Virus record (IMG/VR): IMGVR_UViG_3300046534_000322
Coordinates: 1 to 30,457 of that record
DNA: 30,457 nucleotides
Strand: one strand, 5' to 3'
Source of the DNA: a virus
Position 1 is the first letter of the stretch. Each line of letters begins with the position of its first letter. A program made the position numbers and the translations under genes. Positions 3,083 to 15,840 of the stretch are shown in pieces. The notes under the pieces were generated by a model. The model was not told where the DNA came from and did not search any database. It worked only from the letters and a program-made list of their open reading frames with translations.

Positions 3083-3112
3083 TAACTTTTCCTTTGATTA
3101 AGTCGACTATTT

Positions 3113-3159
3113 ATTATAACAAGGTTTTGATGATTTAATAAATAACTAATTGATATAAC
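3113..3159 (-). promoter_or_regulatory. Phage promoter of repeated class, copy D (denV)
   Basis: The minus strand has TATAAT (3113-3118), an 18-nt spacer and GTTATTTATT (3137-3146), with a GTTATATC half-site upstream (3152-3159). The upstream dyad is reduced to one arm and is 8 nt closer than in copies A and B. The denV start codon lies 31 nt downstream of the -10 box. Confidence 0.7.
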
Positions 3160-3170
3160 GTTATTCTATT

Positions 3171-3488
3171 TTAATCTATCTCTTCACCGCACTCATCACA
3201 CTCTAGTCTGCTACTCTCACAGTTACTACAAGGAGGCATACTTGTAGCACTGCAATAGCAAGGCTCTTGTGTGAGTGCTATAGTACCTCCGCACTCACAC
3301 TCACCACCTTCTTCAAGGCTCCTTAGTTCTTGCTCAAATAAAACAGCGTAAACTACTCCGTTAGTAGCATCAACACTAACCATGTTGTTTACTACACTTC
3401 TAACAGTAGTAACAAAACCAGAGTATGGTATACCAGCAGGCATCGGACCGTCAAGAGGAACTACTTTGACTCTGTCTCCTCTGTTCAT
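3171..3488 (-). CDS. Small protein with KOW/SH3-like N-terminus and cysteine-rich zinc-binding C-terminus
   Basis: A 105-residue protein. Residues 1-58 (GDRVKVVPLDGP, YSGFVTTVRSVVNNMVSV) have the strand pattern of a KOW/SH3-like barrel. Residues 61-105 hold eight cysteines in CxC and CxxC pairs (CEC, CYC, CSNC, CDEC), which would suit one or two zinc sites. Such an arrangement suggests nucleic-acid or RNA-polymerase binding, but no named family was recognised. Its ATG overlaps the stop of the Dda-like helicase by 4 nt (ATGA), so the two are translationally coupled. Confidence 0.78.
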   Translation of the reverse strand: MNRGDRVKVVPLDGPMPAGIPYSGFVTTVRSVVNNMVSVDATNGVVYAVLFEQELRSLEEGGECECGGTIALTQEPCYCSATSMPPCSNCESSRLECDECGEEID

Positions 3489-4786
3489 GGTGTGTATACC
3501 TTGTGTGATGCGCGGCTTATGCCTACGTATGTTAATGTTAAGTATAAATCAAAGTTACGTTCTGCAGCTATAGCTAAATCGTCAGTATCTAGTATAACAG
3601 TATGGAACGTTGAACCTTGACTCTTGTGTACAGTCATAGCATGAACAAAGTCCATACATACAACACAGTCATCGAAACTAAGAAACTCTCTCCAAGCTTT
3701 AGACCGCTCTCTAGCTAACTTGTGAGTGTAGTTAACTTTAGCCCAAGCTACTGCTTTGTAGCCTCTAAACTCATCTTCTATAGCTTTGTTACTAGCTACA
3801 GCGGCTCTTTGAAGCTCTTCCCTGAGTCTTTTAAAACGATAGTGACCGAAGACATAAGCAAATACAAATTCAGCACCGTCAGTGTCTTGAAACAGACCGA
3901 ACCCACAATTTTCTGACTCTATAAGACCTTCAAGAGTTTTAAACTTACTACCTAAGCTCAAAGGGTCAGTATAGTGTAAGTCTATACAGTTAACATCTTC
4001 TACACTGTGTTTAAACACATAGTGATGCTGAGTAGTAGGACTAAATACATCGTCGTCATTTGCTGGGAACGCATAGCCTTGAATTTTGTAGTTCAAGTCT
4101 TCTACGCGTTTGTTAGTGAAAGCTAGATACACCTTGTCAGGCTCTCTAAACCTTACTTTGTCAATGTCGATGCCTCTTTCAAAGAAGCCCGGTATAGACT
4201 CTAGAGGCTCTGGCTGTGCGACTTTATCTATATAGCTAATTAGTTTCTTCAGAGGAATTTGCAAAGGGTTGTCGTTGCGGTACTGCTTAGTTAACTTCTT
4301 ATGGTACTTGCTACCTTCAGCTTTAAGAGTCTGTTTATCTCCAACAGGTGGCAGTTGGTGATGGTCACCGTACGCAACTAATTTAAGTATTGGCTCACCT
4401 GTGTACATAGGGTCTTGACATGCACGTATGTCCATAGTGTCTTTATCACCGACCATACTATACTCGTCTAAAAACATGACACGAGGCTTTTCATCAGGCT
4501 TACTAGTCTGCATAGATGAGCTAACTTCAGACATCTTAACAGCACTAGAGTTAACAGTAGGACGCTTACCTAAGAAACTGTGCAGAGTCTGTACACGAGC
4601 AAATGTAGGTAACTTAGCTCTAAGTATACCACAAGCTTTGTGAGTGTAAGCGCAAACAACGTAAGGTATTTCATTGTCAATACAGTACTGCACGTCTTTG
4701 CGCATGTCAGTAGTTTTACCTGTGCCAGCAGCACCAGTAACAAACATATCCCAAGCTTCTGGGTCCTCTAAGAATTGCTTAAACAT
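3485..4786 (-). CDS. SF1B DNA helicase (T4 Dda / RecD-like)
   Basis: A 433-residue ATP-dependent 5'-3' type DNA helicase. Motifs in order: Walker A GAAGTGKT (18-25), DEYS motif II (107-110), GDHHQLPP motif III (140-147), VHKSQGST (386-393, UvrD_C_2/RecD-type motif V) and YVGISRAS (420-427, motif VI). The length equals that of T4 Dda (439). It would remodel forks or help strand exchange and origin firing during phage replication. AGGA precedes the ATG, and the start overlaps the upstream 76-residue gene by 8 nt. It is in an operon with a GHKL ATPase upstream and a zinc-binding protein downstream. Confidence 0.93.
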   Translation of the reverse strand: MFKQFLEDPEAWDMFVTGAAGTGKTTDMRKDVQYCIDNEIPYVVCAYTHKACGILRAKLPTFARVQTLHSFLGKRPTVNSSAVKMSEVSSSMQTSKPDEKPRVMFLDEYSMVGDKDTMDIRACQDPMYTGEPILKLVAYGDHHQLPPVGDKQTLKAEGSKYHKKLTKQYRNDNPLQIPLKKLISYIDKVAQPEPLESIPGFFERGIDIDKVRFREPDKVYLAFTNKRVEDLNYKIQGYAFPANDDDVFSPTTQHHYVFKHSVEDVNCIDLHYTDPLSLGSKFKTLEGLIESENCGFGLFQDTDGAEFVFAYVFGHYRFKRLREELQRAAVASNKAIEDEFRGYKAVAWAKVNYTHKLARERSKAWREFLSFDDCVVCMDFVHAMTVHKSQGSTFHTVILDTDDLAIAAERNFDLYLTLTYVGISRASHKVYTP

Positions 4787-5009
4787 CTATTATTCCTCTT
4801 GGGAAGTACTTAAGTATTTCAGGGCTCATATCTTCGTTTAAATAAGTAAAGCAGAATTTAGCACCGAAGTATTCAAAAGCTAAATCTCTGCCATGAGCAT
4901 GGTCTTTGCACTTTATCGCAGCTACACAGTTCTTATCAAAAGTTTTACCATTAACAGAGTGAGCGTGTATCTGACCGAAAGTCACAAATACTGTATTATC
5001 AGAAGACAT
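4779..5009 (-). CDS. Small hypothetical phage protein
   Basis: A 76-residue protein with no recognised catalytic motif. It begins with a strand-rich segment (TVFVTFGQIHAHSVNGKTF) and ends with AFEYFGAKFCFTYLNE and LKYFPRGIIDV. The pattern (NGKTFDKNCVAAI, FEYFGAKFCF, KYFPRG) resembles small conserved proteins that recur in phage replication operons. The start overlaps the GHKL ATPase gene by 11 nt and the end overlaps the helicase start by 8 nt, so it is embedded in a tightly coupled operon. Confidence 0.78.
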   Translation of the reverse strand: MSSDNTVFVTFGQIHAHSVNGKTFDKNCVAAIKCKDHAHGRDLAFEYFGAKFCFTYLNEDMSPEILKYFPRGIIDV

Positions 5010-6015
5010 CAGCAGCTCTCCAACCTTTAGACCTGTGAATTAGTTTTTCGAAGTTGTTTTGTTCGTCACGACGCATAAAGCGCTTGTTGTCTACAGCGAA
5101 TGTAGTTAAGAAGTTAAAAGGAGTGTTTGGGTCAGGTGGAGTAGGTGTTGTGTCAATTCCTGCGCCTTTAAATACACCGTAAGCTGAATAACCGAATGAC
5201 AAACCGCCTACCTTCTGACCTGTTTTGACTATAGGAACATCTCCATAAGTGTATGTAAATATGTTCTTAATCTTTGTCTGCATTTTAGGAGTGATGTAGT
5301 ACTCTAGCAGGCTAACGTCTTTAGCTTCGTTAATTAGCATATCAAATACTTGTTTAGGGTCTCCATAGTTTCCGTGGCCTACAGCTAAAGCTGTTGAAAT
5401 ACCGTCAACCATGTTTCTATCGCGGTTTAGCTCTATCGCATCTGGAGCAAAGTTGTAAGAGTGTGTTAGTTCTTTGTCACGGCATACAAATAAGCCATTG
5501 ACGTAGATATCTCCACCTTCACCAACTACATCGAAGTGTTCTGGCTTGCCTAAGAAACTACCGAAAGGAGTAAGCTTCTTCTGTATCTCGCTCTTATAAG
5601 AGTCTAACAGGTCACACGTGAAAATAGTGTCGCTAGAAGAGTATTCTAACACTTCGAATACTAGACAGAATGTATCCTCTCTTGTTATTTCATTAGTTCT
5701 GAATTGGCCAGATATTTTGCTTTTGCCAGTAAATATGACAGGATTAGTTTCAAGTCTTGTCAGTATCATCATAGCTAGTTTAAGACCTTCACCGTACTTG
5801 CCTATAGAACCATCGCTTTTCTGGGATACACCTAGTGTAAAACAATTTAAAGGTATTTCTGTGTCAAAAGTTTGAACTACTATAGCTTGGTTAAAAATTT
5901 CATAGCTCGCTTCGCAGTCTAAGTCTAACGCGTTTTGTGCAACTTCTCTAAGTGCTTCTAAATAGCCCCAATCAGAGCAATATTCGGCTGACATATTAAA
6001 GTCTAGTATTTTCAT
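4999..6015 (-). CDS. GHKL (Bergerat-fold) ATPase
   Basis: A 338-residue protein with an N-terminal histidine-kinase/Hsp90-like ATPase domain. The N box is EALREVAQNALD (E24, N28) and the G2 lid is GSIGKYGEGLKL (G75, G77). The G1 box is degenerate: where DxGxG is expected I see TFDTEIPLNC, keeping Asp51 but losing the glycines. The rest has no recognisable kinase, topoisomerase or MutL part. Phage GHKL proteins of this type are common but of unknown role; T4 RIIA is one distant example with a GHKL domain. The gene overlaps the 55-residue gene upstream (ATGA) and the 76-residue gene downstream. ATPase fold likely; role unknown. Confidence 0.85.
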   Translation of the reverse strand: MKILDFNMSAEYCSDWGYLEALREVAQNALDLDCEASYEIFNQAIVVQTFDTEIPLNCFTLGVSQKSDGSIGKYGEGLKLAMMILTRLETNPVIFTGKSKISGQFRTNEITREDTFCLVFEVLEYSSSDTIFTCDLLDSYKSEIQKKLTPFGSFLGKPEHFDVVGEGGDIYVNGLFVCRDKELTHSYNFAPDAIELNRDRNMVDGISTALAVGHGNYGDPKQVFDMLINEAKDVSLLEYYITPKMQTKIKNIFTYTYGDVPIVKTGQKVGGLSFGYSAYGVFKGAGIDTTPTPPDPNTPFNFLTTFAVDNKRFMRRDEQNNFEKLIHRSKGWRAADVF

Positions 6016-10876: not shown

Positions 10877-11356
10877 TTACAGACCGCGAGCTTCAGAGTC
10901 AGCTAAACATTCTTCTAGTGTGGCGAACCCGTAGCCATCGTCTAAAGGAGATATCTTAGCACGCTCAAGTGCAATAGCTTCTTGCTCAGTAGCGATGTCA
11001 GCAACTTCTATCTCACCGGCGGTTAAACGAGTAAGCAAACCAGCTTCAGCTTCTTTAGCAGCTTTATACTGACCATTCCACTTTGCTGTACCGTCTTTAC
11101 TCATCGAGCTTAAGCCTGATGCAGATGAAGTCTTAGCTCCAAAATCTACAACACGAGGGTCGAAGAACAACTTGTGATAAGCACAACGAACGGCAACAAC
11201 TACGTCGTCTACAATATGGAAAGCACTTACACCACCGCCGCCACCTGTTTTGGCTTCAGCTAACTTAATTACTTGCTCGATTACAGAACTTACTTTTTTA
11301 TCTACGTTAGCTTCTAGTAAGTCAACGATGGCAGAGAACATTTTTTTAATAGCCAC
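10877..11356 (-). CDS. Conserved early protein, paralogue of the 14755-15168 product
   Basis: A 159-residue protein that starts at GTG with GGAG about 8 nt before it. It shares a pattern with the 137-residue protein at 14755-15168: VxLLEANxxKKVS, a YHK, then SSAxGLxSMxKxGxxxW and QxxAxKxAExxLL. It has a glycine run (GGGGG near residue 38) and a longer acidic C-terminus than its paralogue. It forms a single-gene unit with its own promoter and a strong terminator, which suggests high and separately controlled expression. Function unknown. Confidence 0.85.
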   Translation of the reverse strand: MAIKKMFSAIVDLLEANVDKKVSSVIEQVIKLAEAKTGGGGGVSAFHIVDDVVVAVRCAYHKLFFDPRVVDFGAKTSSASGLSSMSKDGTAKWNGQYKAAKEAEAGLLTRLTAGEIEVADIATEQEAIALERAKISPLDDGYGFATLEECLADSEARGL

Positions 11357-12681: not shown

Positions 12682-12931
12682 TGTTATTCTCCCTTAATAT
12701 GCTTAAGTAAATGTTTGTATGCAAGTAAGTCTTCTTTCTTACTATAGATTTAGGTATCCAGATAGTTAAGCCTTCAGTAGTAATCTTGTAAGCTTTATCA
12801 GTCTTATCTACAACTACAAAGTCTACATGCGTATGGTGGAACAGCGGGTCACTAACGAAGTCATCTGAGTACATACTATCTATGTCTTCAGTTTCATAAG
12901 CGTCCAAGCCATGATTGAATGTGTCACTCAT
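12668..12931 (-). CDS. Small hypothetical protein
   Basis: An 87-residue protein with an acidic N-terminal third (YETEDIDSMYSDDF) and a compact beta part, FVVVDKTDKAYKI then GLTIWIPKSIVRK. The last pattern (modify strand, then W-P-K-S) is frequent in short phage and plasmid proteins of unknown role. It overlaps the CGYxACVC-family gene by 8 nt. Function unknown. Confidence 0.72.
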   Translation of the reverse strand: MSDTFNHGLDAYETEDIDSMYSDDFVSDPLFHHTHVDFVVVDKTDKAYKITTEGLTIWIPKSIVRKKTYLHTNIYLSILRENNNAKA

Positions 12932-13376
12932 TAGTTAACACCTTTACTAGCATTCTGATGTATCTTGCAGCTAACTTGGGTGAGGACTCGCTGTTAAGGT
13001 GAGGGTGCTCTAACTGATTAGGTGTTAGTAAGTTAGAACTATGTGCGAATAACTTACGGTCGCAACTGCTTGTTACAGACTTTGCAAGATAAGAGCTACC
13101 TGTATGTACTATGCAAGCTTCTCGTATATCTTCGTCTATATAGTTAGCTAAGTATATTCCTTTTAGAGTACCTAAAGACAAGGCTGTATCTGATTTGGGA
13201 AATAACTTTAAATCTCGTGATACAGCTTGATGGCTACATACACAAGCCACATACCCGCAAGTATTAATTGAACTACCTCTATAGTATGTGAACATGTTGA
13301 AACTGTCTTCATCAACTTTGCTCATTGTCTTAGCTAAAGCTAACAGCTGACTTATAAATAGCGGAGATTCTTTCAT
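12924..13376 (-). CDS. CGYxACVC-family early protein, copy 1
   Basis: A 150-residue protein clearly related to the product of 13958-14407. Shared patterns are LFISQLxALA, CGYxACVC near residue 40, FPxxD, YIDEDxRxAC, LAKSVT, then LTxxQLxHPHL and a C-terminal SSPxxAAxYIRMLxxVLT. Three invariant Cys in the first half and the HPH could bind metal, but no known fold is recognised. It overlaps the upstream gene by 4 nt and the downstream gene by 8 nt. Confidence 0.82.
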   Translation of the reverse strand: MKESPLFISQLLALAKTMSKVDEDSFNMFTYYRGSSINTCGYVACVCSHQAVSRDLKLFPKSDTALSLGTLKGIYLANYIDEDIREACIVHTGSSYLAKSVTSSCDRKLFAHSSNLLTPNQLEHPHLNSESSPKLAARYIRMLVKVLTNE

Positions 13377-13639
13377 AGTGTTATTCCTGTCCCTATGTAT
13401 TTGTTAATAGGCTTTAGGGCTACCTCAATAGCTCTGAGTACGTTTCTTGAGCGGATGTGGTCGATACTAAGGATAGCCTCATTACGTTTAATCTCGTTGA
13501 CTAGAGAGACTAATTGAGCTACATCGAACTTATTAACTAATACTACTCTTGAAGAGCGAGACTTTAGCTCTAGTAAGTGGCAAAGTTCATCACTCAGGTC
13601 AACCTCGTGAGTCGTGGTCTTGACTACTGTATATATCAT
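13373..13639 (-). CDS. Small hypothetical protein
   Basis: An 88-residue protein with a strand start (MIYTVVKTTTHEVDLS) and helical remainder (FDVAQLVSLVNEIKR, VLRAIEVALKPINKY). No motif is recognised. Its start codon follows copy 1 of the repeated hairpin/leader element, with AGGA as ribosome site. It overlaps the CGYxACVC-family gene downstream by 4 nt. Confidence 0.72.
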   Translation of the reverse strand: MIYTVVKTTTHEVDLSDELCHLLELKSRSSRVVLVNKFDVAQLVSLVNEIKRNEAILSIDHIRSRNVLRAIEVALKPINKYIGTGITL

Positions 13640-13644
13640 GGTAC

Positions 13645-13699
13645 TATTCCTAGTTTAAGGGTGTTGTCAATAGGACCTCGTGAAGCCCTATTAAGAATC
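13645..13699 (-). repeat. Repeated hairpin/leader element, copy 1
   Basis: A 55-bp element just before the 13373-13639 gene. On the minus strand AATAGGGCTT pairs with AGGTCCTATT across a CACG loop (hairpin 13669-13692, with G-T pairs). TTGACA follows, then TTAAACTAGGAATA, which carries the ribosome site. It is nearly identical to copy 3 (37 nt identical in the hairpin half). Confidence 0.85.
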
Positions 13700-13701
13700 G
13701 C

Positions 13702-13857
13702 CTAATCATCTTCTACGCGTTTTTTAATGAGCTCATCTAAGAGCGTCTGGATGGTCCCAGTCTGATTCTCGAGTTCTTCTATAGCATTATCCATATCTTC
13801 GTCTTCGATGAGCTCACAGATGTGCTCAAGCTCCTCAATTAAATCTCGTATACTCAT
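13702..13857 (-). CDS. Very acidic small protein (51 aa)
   Basis: A short frame from MSIRDLIEELEHI to KKRVEDD, with AGGAG 6 nt before the ATG. It is strongly acidic and almost wholly helical, with heptad-like leucines and isoleucines (DLIEELEHICELIEDED, TLLDELIKKRVEDD), so it may form a coiled coil or mimic DNA charge. It is the first gene after promoter copy B and is followed by hairpin element copy 1. Function unknown; existence likely from ribosome site and promoter spacing. Confidence 0.72.
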   Translation of the reverse strand: MSIRDLIEELEHICELIEDEDMDNAIEELENQTGTIQTLLDELIKKRVEDD

Positions 13858-13883
13858 TATATTCTCCTAGTGAATTCATACCC

Positions 13884-13935
13884 ATTATATACGGATATGA
13901 TATTTAATAAATAACGATTAGGTATATGATATAAC
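13884..13935 (-). promoter_or_regulatory. Phage promoter of repeated class, copy B
   Basis: The minus strand has TATAAT (13884-13889), a 16-nt spacer, GTTATTTATT (13906-13915) and a near-perfect dyad GTTATATCATATACC (13921-13935). The 51-residue acidic gene starts 27 nt below the -10. It would drive the small-gene operon down to 11471. Confidence 0.75.
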
Positions 13936-13957
13936 TAATCATTATATATAAGTAGTG

Positions 13958-14407
13958 TTAAACTGTTAATACTCTTATAAGCATTCTGATGTAACTTGCA
14001 GCGTGCTCAGGTGAAGACTCAGTAGTTAGATGAGGATGTTGTAACTGCTCATCTGTAAGATACTCAGACGCTTTCTTCTTACGTGTTTCCGCACCGACCA
14101 TAGTTACACTCTTTGCTAAAGAGCTGTAACCTGTAGCTGTGTGGCACGCTGCTCGTAAGTCTTCATCTATGTATCCAGCTACATTAGGTATAATAAAACT
14201 CATCGTCGGTGATTTAAGCTTCAATGAATCAGCTATAGGAAAGAACTCCAGTCTACCTGACAATGCTTGCTCTCCACATACACAAGCTGTGTATCCGCAC
14301 TTATTCAAGAAAGTGCTATAATAATAGCTCATACTAAAGTTAATAGCTTTAGTTTCTTCTAGTGTAGTAGCTAATGCTTCTAGCTGACTTATAAATAATT
14401 TCTTCAT
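13958..14407 (-). CDS. CGYxACVC-family early protein, copy 2
   Basis: A 149-residue paralogue of the 12924-13376 product, sharing LFISQLxALA, YYxxxxxxxCGYxACVC, YIDEDxRxAC, LAKSVT, QLxHPHL and the C-terminal YIRML. The variable middle (residues 60-80) and the segment after LAKSVT differ most. The start follows hairpin element copy 2 with TAGGAA as ribosome site, so expression differs from copy 1. No known family is recognised. Confidence 0.82.
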   Translation of the reverse strand: MKKLFISQLEALATTLEETKAINFSMSYYYSTFLNKCGYTACVCGEQALSGRLEFFPIADSLKLKSPTMSFIIPNVAGYIDEDLRAACHTATGYSSLAKSVTMVGAETRKKKASEYLTDEQLQHPHLTTESSPEHAASYIRMLIRVLTV

Positions 14408-14411
14408 TGCT

Positions 14412-14454
14412 TATTCCTAGTTTAATGAGGTTGTCAATAGAGCCTCGTGAAGCT
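14412..14454 (-). repeat. Repeated hairpin/leader element, copy 2
   Basis: A shorter, diverged copy before the 13958-14407 gene. The stem AGCTT/AGGCT keeps the CACG loop but has different paired bases from copies 1 and 3, so structure looks conserved rather than sequence. TTGACA and TTAAACTAGGAATA follow as in the others. It overlaps the stop of the upstream gene by 2 nt. Confidence 0.75.
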
Positions 14455-14692
14455 AAATGTCGTTATCATACTCATACTTAACGATGTCTATCTCATCGTA
14501 TAAGTCTTGGCCAAATGCTGCGATGACTTCAGCCTTAGTTATAGACTCATCCTCATAGGCTTCAGAACACGCGTTGTACTTCAATTGGTCCATGTATTCA
14601 TCAGCAGTAGGCTTAGACGGTATCCAATTTCTGTCGTCCTTAAGCTCAAACTCTGCAATTTCAGCTTGTAGTAATGCTTCGCATTTAGTCAT
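14453..14692 (-). CDS. Small acidic hypothetical protein
   Basis: A 79-residue acidic protein (MTKCEALLQAEIAEFELKDD, ending DEIDIVKYEYDNDI), mostly helical with no recognised motif. It starts directly after hairpin element copy 3 with AGGA as ribosome site, and its stop runs into copy 2. It is therefore framed by two copies of the element. Confidence 0.72.
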   Translation of the reverse strand: MTKCEALLQAEIAEFELKDDRNWIPSKPTADEYMDQLKYNACSEAYEDESITKAEVIAAFGQDLYDEIDIVKYEYDNDI

Positions 14693-14697
14693 GGTAT

Positions 14698-14752
14698 TAT
14701 TCCTAGTTTAATGGGGTTGTCAATAGGACCTCGTGAAGCCCTATTAAGAATC
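14698..14752 (-). repeat. Repeated hairpin/leader element, copy 3
   Basis: A 55-bp copy between the 14755-15168 and 14453-14692 genes; the hairpin is at 14722-14745. It is almost identical to copy 1, including GATTCTTAATAGGG and TTGACAAC. The -35-like TTGACA is 16 nt from AATAAT, but that would start transcription at about the ATG. A leader or processing role seems more likely than a simple promoter. Confidence 0.85.
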
Positions 14753-14754
14753 AA

Positions 14755-15168
14755 CTAAACTATTGGTACGATGGCATTCGCTGCATTATTGATAGCCTCT
14801 TGAAGCGCTGGGAGGTCTTTGATACTTGTTGAACCATGAGCTAAGGATGCCAATAGAGCGGTCTCAGCAGCCTTCTTAGCGCGTTGTTGCTTAGTCCAAT
14901 GGGATACACCGACTTTGCACATCGAAGCTAATCCAGTCGCACTCGAGGCCTTCTTCCCATATTCGTGAGTGGATACTTCTTCCCATTGCTTGTGGTAGTA
15001 GCAATAGACTGAGGTGACATTACCTTCGCTGTCCTTAATGAAATTCTTGGAATTCTGCTTAGTGGTAACTAATTCAAGAATCTGAGGGAGCATCGTTGAT
15101 ACCTTCTTGTTTTTGTTAGCTTCAAGAAGAGCGACTATTTCTGCGTACTGGGTTTTGATGTTTGACAT
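14755..15168 (-). CDS. Conserved early protein, paralogue of the 10877-11356 product
   Basis: A 137-residue protein, the first gene of the whole leftward arm. Shared with its paralogue: VxLLEANxxKKVS, YCYYHKQW, KKASSATGLASMCKVG, HWTKQQRAKKAAE and a C-terminal QEA. The basic W-x-KQQRAKKAAE helix could contact nucleic acid or RNA polymerase. AAAAGG precedes the ATG. It sits under promoter copy C, where its paralogue has a simple sigma70-like promoter. No family name is known to me. Confidence 0.85.
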   Translation of the reverse strand: MSNIKTQYAEIVALLEANKNKKVSTMLPQILELVTTKQNSKNFIKDSEGNVTSVYCYYHKQWEEVSTHEYGKKASSATGLASMCKVGVSHWTKQQRAKKAAETALLASLAHGSTSIKDLPALQEAINNAANAIVPIV

Positions 15169-15197: not shown

Positions 15198-15252
15198 ATC
15201 TTAACTGCTTGTGACTTATTTAATAAATAACAAATAATTATACTATATAACT
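15198..15252 (-). promoter_or_regulatory. Phage promoter of repeated class, copy C
   Basis: The minus strand has TAAGAT (15198-15203) as -10, an 18-nt spacer, GTTATTTATT (15222-15231) and a degenerate dyad around 15237-15251 (GTTATATAGTATAAT). The gene at 15168 starts 30 nt below the -10. It lies at the edge of the structured non-coding region. Confidence 0.65.
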
Positions 15253-15483
15253 AACTGATATATACTAGCGTTAGCTAATTGTGGTACGCACGTGTACGCT
15301 CGCATAATAAATGGTGAATTATACTAGTAAGCGCTGAGTGAGCTCTGGTCGTGTTTAGTAGTCTCGGATAGGTGTTACTATTAGTTAGATGATTGGAGCT
15401 GAAATCACTTTTGAGAAATATTGAACTACTCGTGTAGTATAACTTAAGCTTATAACGCAGTTTAACACTCATAACGCTGTTCT

Positions 15484-15585: not shown

Positions 15586-15619
15586 TAAATAATATAATAA
15601 TAACTACTAATATTAGCTA

Positions 15620-15840
15620 TACTCATAAGTTCTAAGCATATTTAGGTCTAAGCTATAAGCTCGCTGGTTCTATATTAGTTATGCTTTTAAGTTCTAAGAA
15701 CTATTGGCACGAGCATATACTCATAAGTTCTAAGAACGTTTAAGCATAAGCGAAAGCACGCTGTCATCTATGTTAGTTATATGTTATGCTTTTAAGTTCT
15801 AAGAACATTTGAGTCTAAGCTAGTAAGTTCTTATAACTTA
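15620..15840. repeat. Iteron-like palindromic repeats
   Basis: AAGTTCTAAG recurs at 15627, 15689, 15725 and 15794, three times as the dyad GTTCTAAGAAC. The left flanks alternate between ACTCAT and ATGCTTTT, so the four cores form two copies of a two-part unit about 100 bp apart. A fifth degenerate copy ends at about 15840. They look like protein-binding iterons. Confidence 0.75.

Follow-up and report, generated by a model that had tools for sequence, protein, structure and literature searches.

The window analyzed here, that is the complete 30,457-base stretch of the virus record, encodes on its minus strand two similar small proteins with a conserved cysteine motif, which raises the question of what family they belong to, why they are present twice and what they may do for the phage. 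Copy A (12924–13376, minus strand; 150 aa) carries the motifs CGYVACVCS and HPHL, and copy B (13958–14407, minus strand; 149 aa) carries C37-G-Y-T-A-C42-V-C-G and HPHL. The two proteins are identical at 73 of 146 positions (50%; BLASTP E 6e-43), with a Smith-Waterman score of 310 against at most 48 across 500 shuffles, and the motifs CGYxACVC, YIDEDxRxAC, LAKSVT, QLxHPHL and YIRML were all found in the pair as quoted in the preliminary description. A ribosome-binding-like sequence, AGGAATAA, is located shortly ahead of the ATG in both copies, the nucleotide differences between them are most numerous at the third codon position (54/48/81 at positions 1/2/3), and dN is 0.49 against a dS of 1.33, indicating that both are real coding genes under purifying selection. 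Paralogy with divergence, the gene ends and the motifs thus stand as first proposed, while the strictly tandem arrangement does not, because two small ORFs are located between the copies: one of 88 aa (13373–13639, minus strand), directly upstream of copy A and overlapping its start by 4 nt, and an acidic one of 51 aa (13702–13857, minus strand). Neither of these gave a family match, nor did the 79-aa ORF (14453–14692, minus strand) upstream of copy B.

The pair was left by a segmental duplication of approximately 1 kb. Direct repeats in the coding sequences have spacings of 1031 and 1037, and a repeated 70-nt start/leader element has a spacing of 1053: its copy upstream of the 88-aa ORF (13636–13705, minus strand) is 93% identical to the one upstream of the 79-aa ORF (14689–14758, minus strand). 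The direct repeats span both coding sequence and leaders, which were thus probably duplicated jointly; the small ORFs now found between copies A and B have probably been exchanged or have diverged since. A third leader of this type, 43 nt long, is present directly upstream of copy B (14411–14453, minus strand). The three near-identical 43-nt leaders (13644–13686, 14411–14453 and 14697–14739), each placed directly before a different ORF, contain TTGACA and GAGG/CCTC segments, and a regulatory role is possible for them. A sigma-70 promoter was considered for the repeated leader but rejected, since its -10-like hexamer coincides in part with the ribosome-binding site and the region contains no more promoter-like sites than expected from shuffling (15 versus 22). 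An AT-rich 48-nt segment (13901–13948, minus strand), which is 79% identical to 15217–15264 at a spacing of 1316, is a possible promoter region. Apart from these repeats, four copies of a repeat of about 45 nt (67–78% identical; core ATAAGTTCTAAG or TTAAGTTCTAAG) are clustered at 15611–15822, with the terminase gene on one side and the early operon on the other, possibly representing an origin or operator region.

The window virus is a podovirus, whose DNA polymerase/primase, Dda-like helicase, terminase, major head and portal-type proteins match those of Vibrio phage VPMS1, Pseudoalteromonas phage PH1 and Edwardsiella phage KF-1. The gene pair lies in a variable early block bounded by two paralogues of PHROG 10459, one on the start side (14755–15168, minus strand; E 7.8e-48) and one at the other boundary (10877–11356, minus strand; E 1.7e-45). 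The small ORFs between these paralogues had few or no matches in VPMS1, PH1 and KF-1, where the block content is different, and in profile and motif searches the CG[TY]xxC family was absent from all three genomes; the pair is therefore accessory in the window lineage, which supports its location in an accessory, early-type region. The three related phages also have two or more PHROG 10459 copies around their own variable block, so that these paralogues may constitute a conserved frame for accessory genes.

The initial view of the family as an unrecognized one had to be revised, since both proteins match a catalogued family and belong to a branch of a CGTxxC family that includes PHROG 889. The closest match, PHROG 19396, covered nearly the full length of both copies (residues 7–144 in A, E 7e-11; residues 2–145 in B, E 7.3e-16; positions 10–165 of 170 in the profile); its function is unassigned in PHROG, and by sequence the window pair represents two further members. 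Within the phage collection, PHROG 19396 was matched only in the Marinomonas phages CPP1m, CPG1g and CB5A, with two tandem copies each, which in CPP1m are located at 3083–3580 and 3911–4384 with one small ORF in between and the RNA polymerase gene following at 6013. These phages are members of the Autographiviridae (Murciavirus), with the pair placed after the genome start and ahead of the RNA polymerase gene. In T7-like phages, the class-I early genes occupy this position, and by analogy the Marinomonas pair is likely to be expressed early. The Marinomonas proteins have in common with the window pair the CGYxACV motif, the C-terminal HL...SPEEAxxYI, the tandem arrangement and the early-type position. 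In contrast, their identity to the window proteins is only 31–38%, they have FRHL or FEHL in place of HPH, and their second copy has lost the first Cys of the motif in favor of Gln. Passages found in a paper on Marinomonas phages (PMC5576922) do not mention the PHROG 19396 genes, and none of the papers searched named either PHROG 889 or PHROG 19396.

A profile of the four closest members extended this branch to contigs L017 (three copies), L044 (two copies and a more distant third), L018/L019 and L046 (two each) and L047, and to Alteromonas phage vB_AmeP-R22Y. The proteins found are similar to the window pair in length, FxM, CGTxACV, Arg109 and an HL near the C-terminus, and several of the contigs, as the window, carry two or three copies; they differ in that the Tyr of the motif is replaced by Thr and HPHL usually by FxHL. 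Because these relatives carry CGTxACV[CV]G, the CGYxACVC signature can be understood as a Tyr variant of a CGTxxCxxG (CGTxACxxG) motif. The broad family with this motif was gathered by a DNA motif pattern, which yielded 71 viral-contig stretches, many with a recognizable family ORF, and which did not gather the window proteins. A profile of 61 rows (A8), made from the motif stretches and other broad-family loci with zero members of the window branch, detected both window proteins (E 5.8e-5 and 1.6e-4 at Z=10,000). In hhalign comparisons, the branch matched the broad family with a probability of 96.8% and the profile of the four closest members with 95.4%, against a maximum of 1.3% in column shuffles (59 valid each), in an alignment that covers about 50 N-terminal columns and ends after the Cys motif. 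As far as sequence comparison can tell, the window branch belongs to the broad FxM...CGTxxCxxG family, as shown for the N-terminal half, while homology of the C-terminal halves is plausible: of the middle and C-terminal motif of the broad family, W..Y..F...W...DNTPxGAAxRI, the window proteins have only an SPE.A..YI helix resembling TPxGAAxRI.

The broad family includes PHROG 889 (Pseudomonas phage 119X gp51, E 8.5e-22). No direct match to the PHROG 889 model was obtained at E≤1 with the window proteins or elsewhere in the window genome; the bridging proteins P0004, L017 and L044 matched it with E values of 0.00086–0.028. Similarly to the window pair, PHROG 889 and the broad family have an N-terminal helix, FxM, the CGTxxCxxG turn and frequent tandem arrays, and their TPxxAxxRI-like C-terminal helix may be shared as well, but their middle part is different (W..Y..F...W...DNTP) and lacks HPH. 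Apart from 119X gp51, the broad family spans Agrobacterium, Rhizobium and Synechococcus phages, cluster E mycobacteriophages and a Sphingopyxis locus, with podo-, sipho- and myovirus-type genomes and prophages as carriers; plasmids gave zero family matches, and bacterial genome contigs gave zero confirmed matches with the branch profile. The locus in Sphingopyxis flava (L136, 301–4429) is prophage-like and contains several broad-family copies, including one ORF consisting of two fused family domains, and apparently coincides with a viral contig locus (L105). A broad-family protein with CHTAACAAGH also occurs in cluster E mycobacteriophages, in many cases at two places per genome, exemplified by gene 93 of Mycobacterium phage Henry (L135, 8067–8510). 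The UniProt name 'RDF protein' of a Henry protein, which was tied to gene 93 by its length (147 aa) and an A8 profile match (E 8.8e-6), was not relied on: no supporting experiment was found for it. Cluster E phages were looked for in a paper on mycobacteriophage toxic genes (PMC7474061) and are not mentioned there. In contig L017, the ORF directly after the three family copies (4489–4890) has another Cys-rich motif, ENGMCCIVGHM, which resembles the CxxG turn. No characterized member of the CG[TY]xxC family was found in database and literature searches.

The AlphaFold2 model of copy B, based on 16 sequences, was all-helical (pLDDT 84.3, pTM 0.85), with a poorly predicted part at residues 30–39, just before and into the motif (pLDDT about 41). 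The structure search foreseen in the preliminary description returned a PHROG 19396 member with the same predicted fold, the Marinomonas CPP1m protein A0A1W5S465 in BFVD (Foldseek E 6.1e-5, TM 0.71/0.67), and no credible match in the PDB (best E 1.0, probability 0.12). VIA-align reached at best Z 4.4, to helical bundles and cytokine mimetics, a score no higher than that of commonplace helix packings, and a PDB search by sequence gave an unrelated best hit with E 0.2. The model of a broad-family member (pLDDT 85.5, pTM 0.81) had nothing significant in BFVD (best E 0.033) and no PDB row with Z of at least 2 among the 25 chains compared. The absence of a fold match does not prove a new fold. Pfam, NCBIfam and PADLOC likewise had no credible match for the family, and a weak, isolated match to AMT4_dom_C, below the cut-off, was rejected.

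The Cys and His residues had been described as invariant and as suggestive of metal binding or a catalytic thiol. In an enzyme of this kind, C37 and C42 with a nearby His would form a metal site or a catalytic thiol that modifies a host component. In the 16 branch members, the invariant residues were M26, G38, A41, C42, R109 and L127; C37 was retained in 15 of them, the exception being the second Marinomonas copy, and the conserved Gly after the motif (G45) was Ser in copy A. The near-invariance of the Cys pair therefore stood, and it has its counterpart in the broad family, where C47, G48, C52 and G55 were invariant in the 61-row alignment. The invariance of the His residues did not: H124, the first His of HPH, was Phe in most branch members and H126, the second, was Phe once and was limited to the window branch, HPH being without a counterpart in the broad family. 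No further invariant Cys, His, Asp or Glu was present in the 16 sequences, which leaves two shared Cys and no complete invariant set of ligands or catalytic residues, either as third and fourth ligand or as acid/base, and no enzyme fold was matched. A Cys-His metal or catalytic site is thus not supported by the alignments as a family feature, and the Cys turn is more simply interpreted as structural; we consider a metal-binding or thiol enzyme unlikely.

The duplication of these genes is not restricted to the window. Family copies cluster by genome in the tree (99/99 for the window pair, 95/88 for the Marinomonas pair and 98/99 for the L017 triplet; the grouping of the L044 pair was weaker, 86/79, with long branches), indicating independent duplications in the window, Marinomonas and L017. 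The longer branch belonged to the second copy in the direction of transcription both in the window (1.18 for copy A versus 0.30 for copy B) and in Marinomonas (2.34 versus 0.30). Other phages hold 4–7 family copies in arrays, such as the tandem arrays of seven broad-family genes in the 15-kb contig L104 (2971–6383) and of six in L109 (11980–13737) together with L100 of the same contig. In the arrays, the loop between FxM and CGT had a mean pairwise difference of 0.74 versus 0.29 elsewhere and of 0.75 versus 0.34, based on seven copies in one of the arrays and four in the other, and none of 5,000 random column choices matched this excess in either array. In L104 the pN of the loop approached pS (0.50 versus 0.54), compared to 0.05 versus 0.19 upstream, and the hypervariability of the array loops may reflect relaxed constraint rather than selection. 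In the window pair the loop is short and its pN only weakly raised (0.47 versus 0.33–0.36). If the copies had the same function, the duplications would only raise expression or be neutral in an accessory early region. The evident segmental duplication of coding and leader sequence, the presence of recent and old duplicates in many phages and the twofold occurrence of PHROG 10459 in the same region are in favor of such dosage or redundancy, which nevertheless appears improbable: the window copies are only 50% identical with strongly unequal branch lengths, and from plain dosage one would not expect array copies that retain the scaffold and vary mostly in a single loop. A nucleic-acid-binding or regulatory protein acting on the phage's own genome, i.e., an accessory factor of early transcription or replication, is slightly less likely still, since the location of members among early, replication or nucleotide-metabolism genes and the name 'RDF protein' of one BFVD relative with a weak structural match are countered by the lack of a recognized DNA-binding domain or a DNA-binding fold that stands out and by the current GenBank record, in which the likely gene, Henry gene 93, is a 'hypothetical protein.'

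The explanation we tentatively prefer, at somewhat less than even confidence, is an early binding protein directed at host or defence proteins, as suggested by position and evolution. It would be a small, mainly helical and probably non-structural phage protein, made early in infection, which would attach to a host or defence protein and then inhibit or redirect this target. In this view, the constant part would consist of the helical scaffold and the CG[TY]xxC turn, both with a structural role, so that the Cys pair would not be a catalytic thiol, and the choice of target would reside in the variable loop that immediately precedes the turn; duplication would then produce copies with different or faster-evolving specificity. 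The family membership, the early-type position, the recurrent duplication, the variable loop and the lack of an enzyme-like catalytic set or fold are in favor of a binding protein, and the concentration of the differences between copies in one short loop suggests, without proving, different targets per copy. Two versions with different host targets, as put forward in the preliminary description, would be consistent with the asymmetric divergence of the copies and with the hypervariable loop of the arrays. Against it, the loop variability comes from broad-family arrays and is only weakly raised in the window pair, multi-copy genes could serve dosage instead, the link to the broad family depends chiefly on some 50 N-terminal residues and a motif-gathered set, and the conserved Cys pair could bind metal or be reactive.

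The array pattern outside the window, with tandem copies and one hypervariable loop, is the most interesting point. A wider proposal, which we regard as doubtful, is that the CG[TY]xxC proteins are phage-wide effectors whose scaffold is fixed and whose single hypervariable loop sits beside a conserved Cys turn, with tandem copies forming a repertoire of up to seven loops per phage against different host or defence proteins; the window would then provide an example with two members. Recognition proteins engaged in an arms race are expected to show such a pattern, in which copies are amplified in tandem and one loop of an otherwise conserved scaffold is hypervariable, and the copy-to-copy variation of the loop makes the function of the CG[TY]xxC family testable. 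Even if the binding of host or defence proteins were refuted, a recurring class of 'hypothetical proteins' would be explained.
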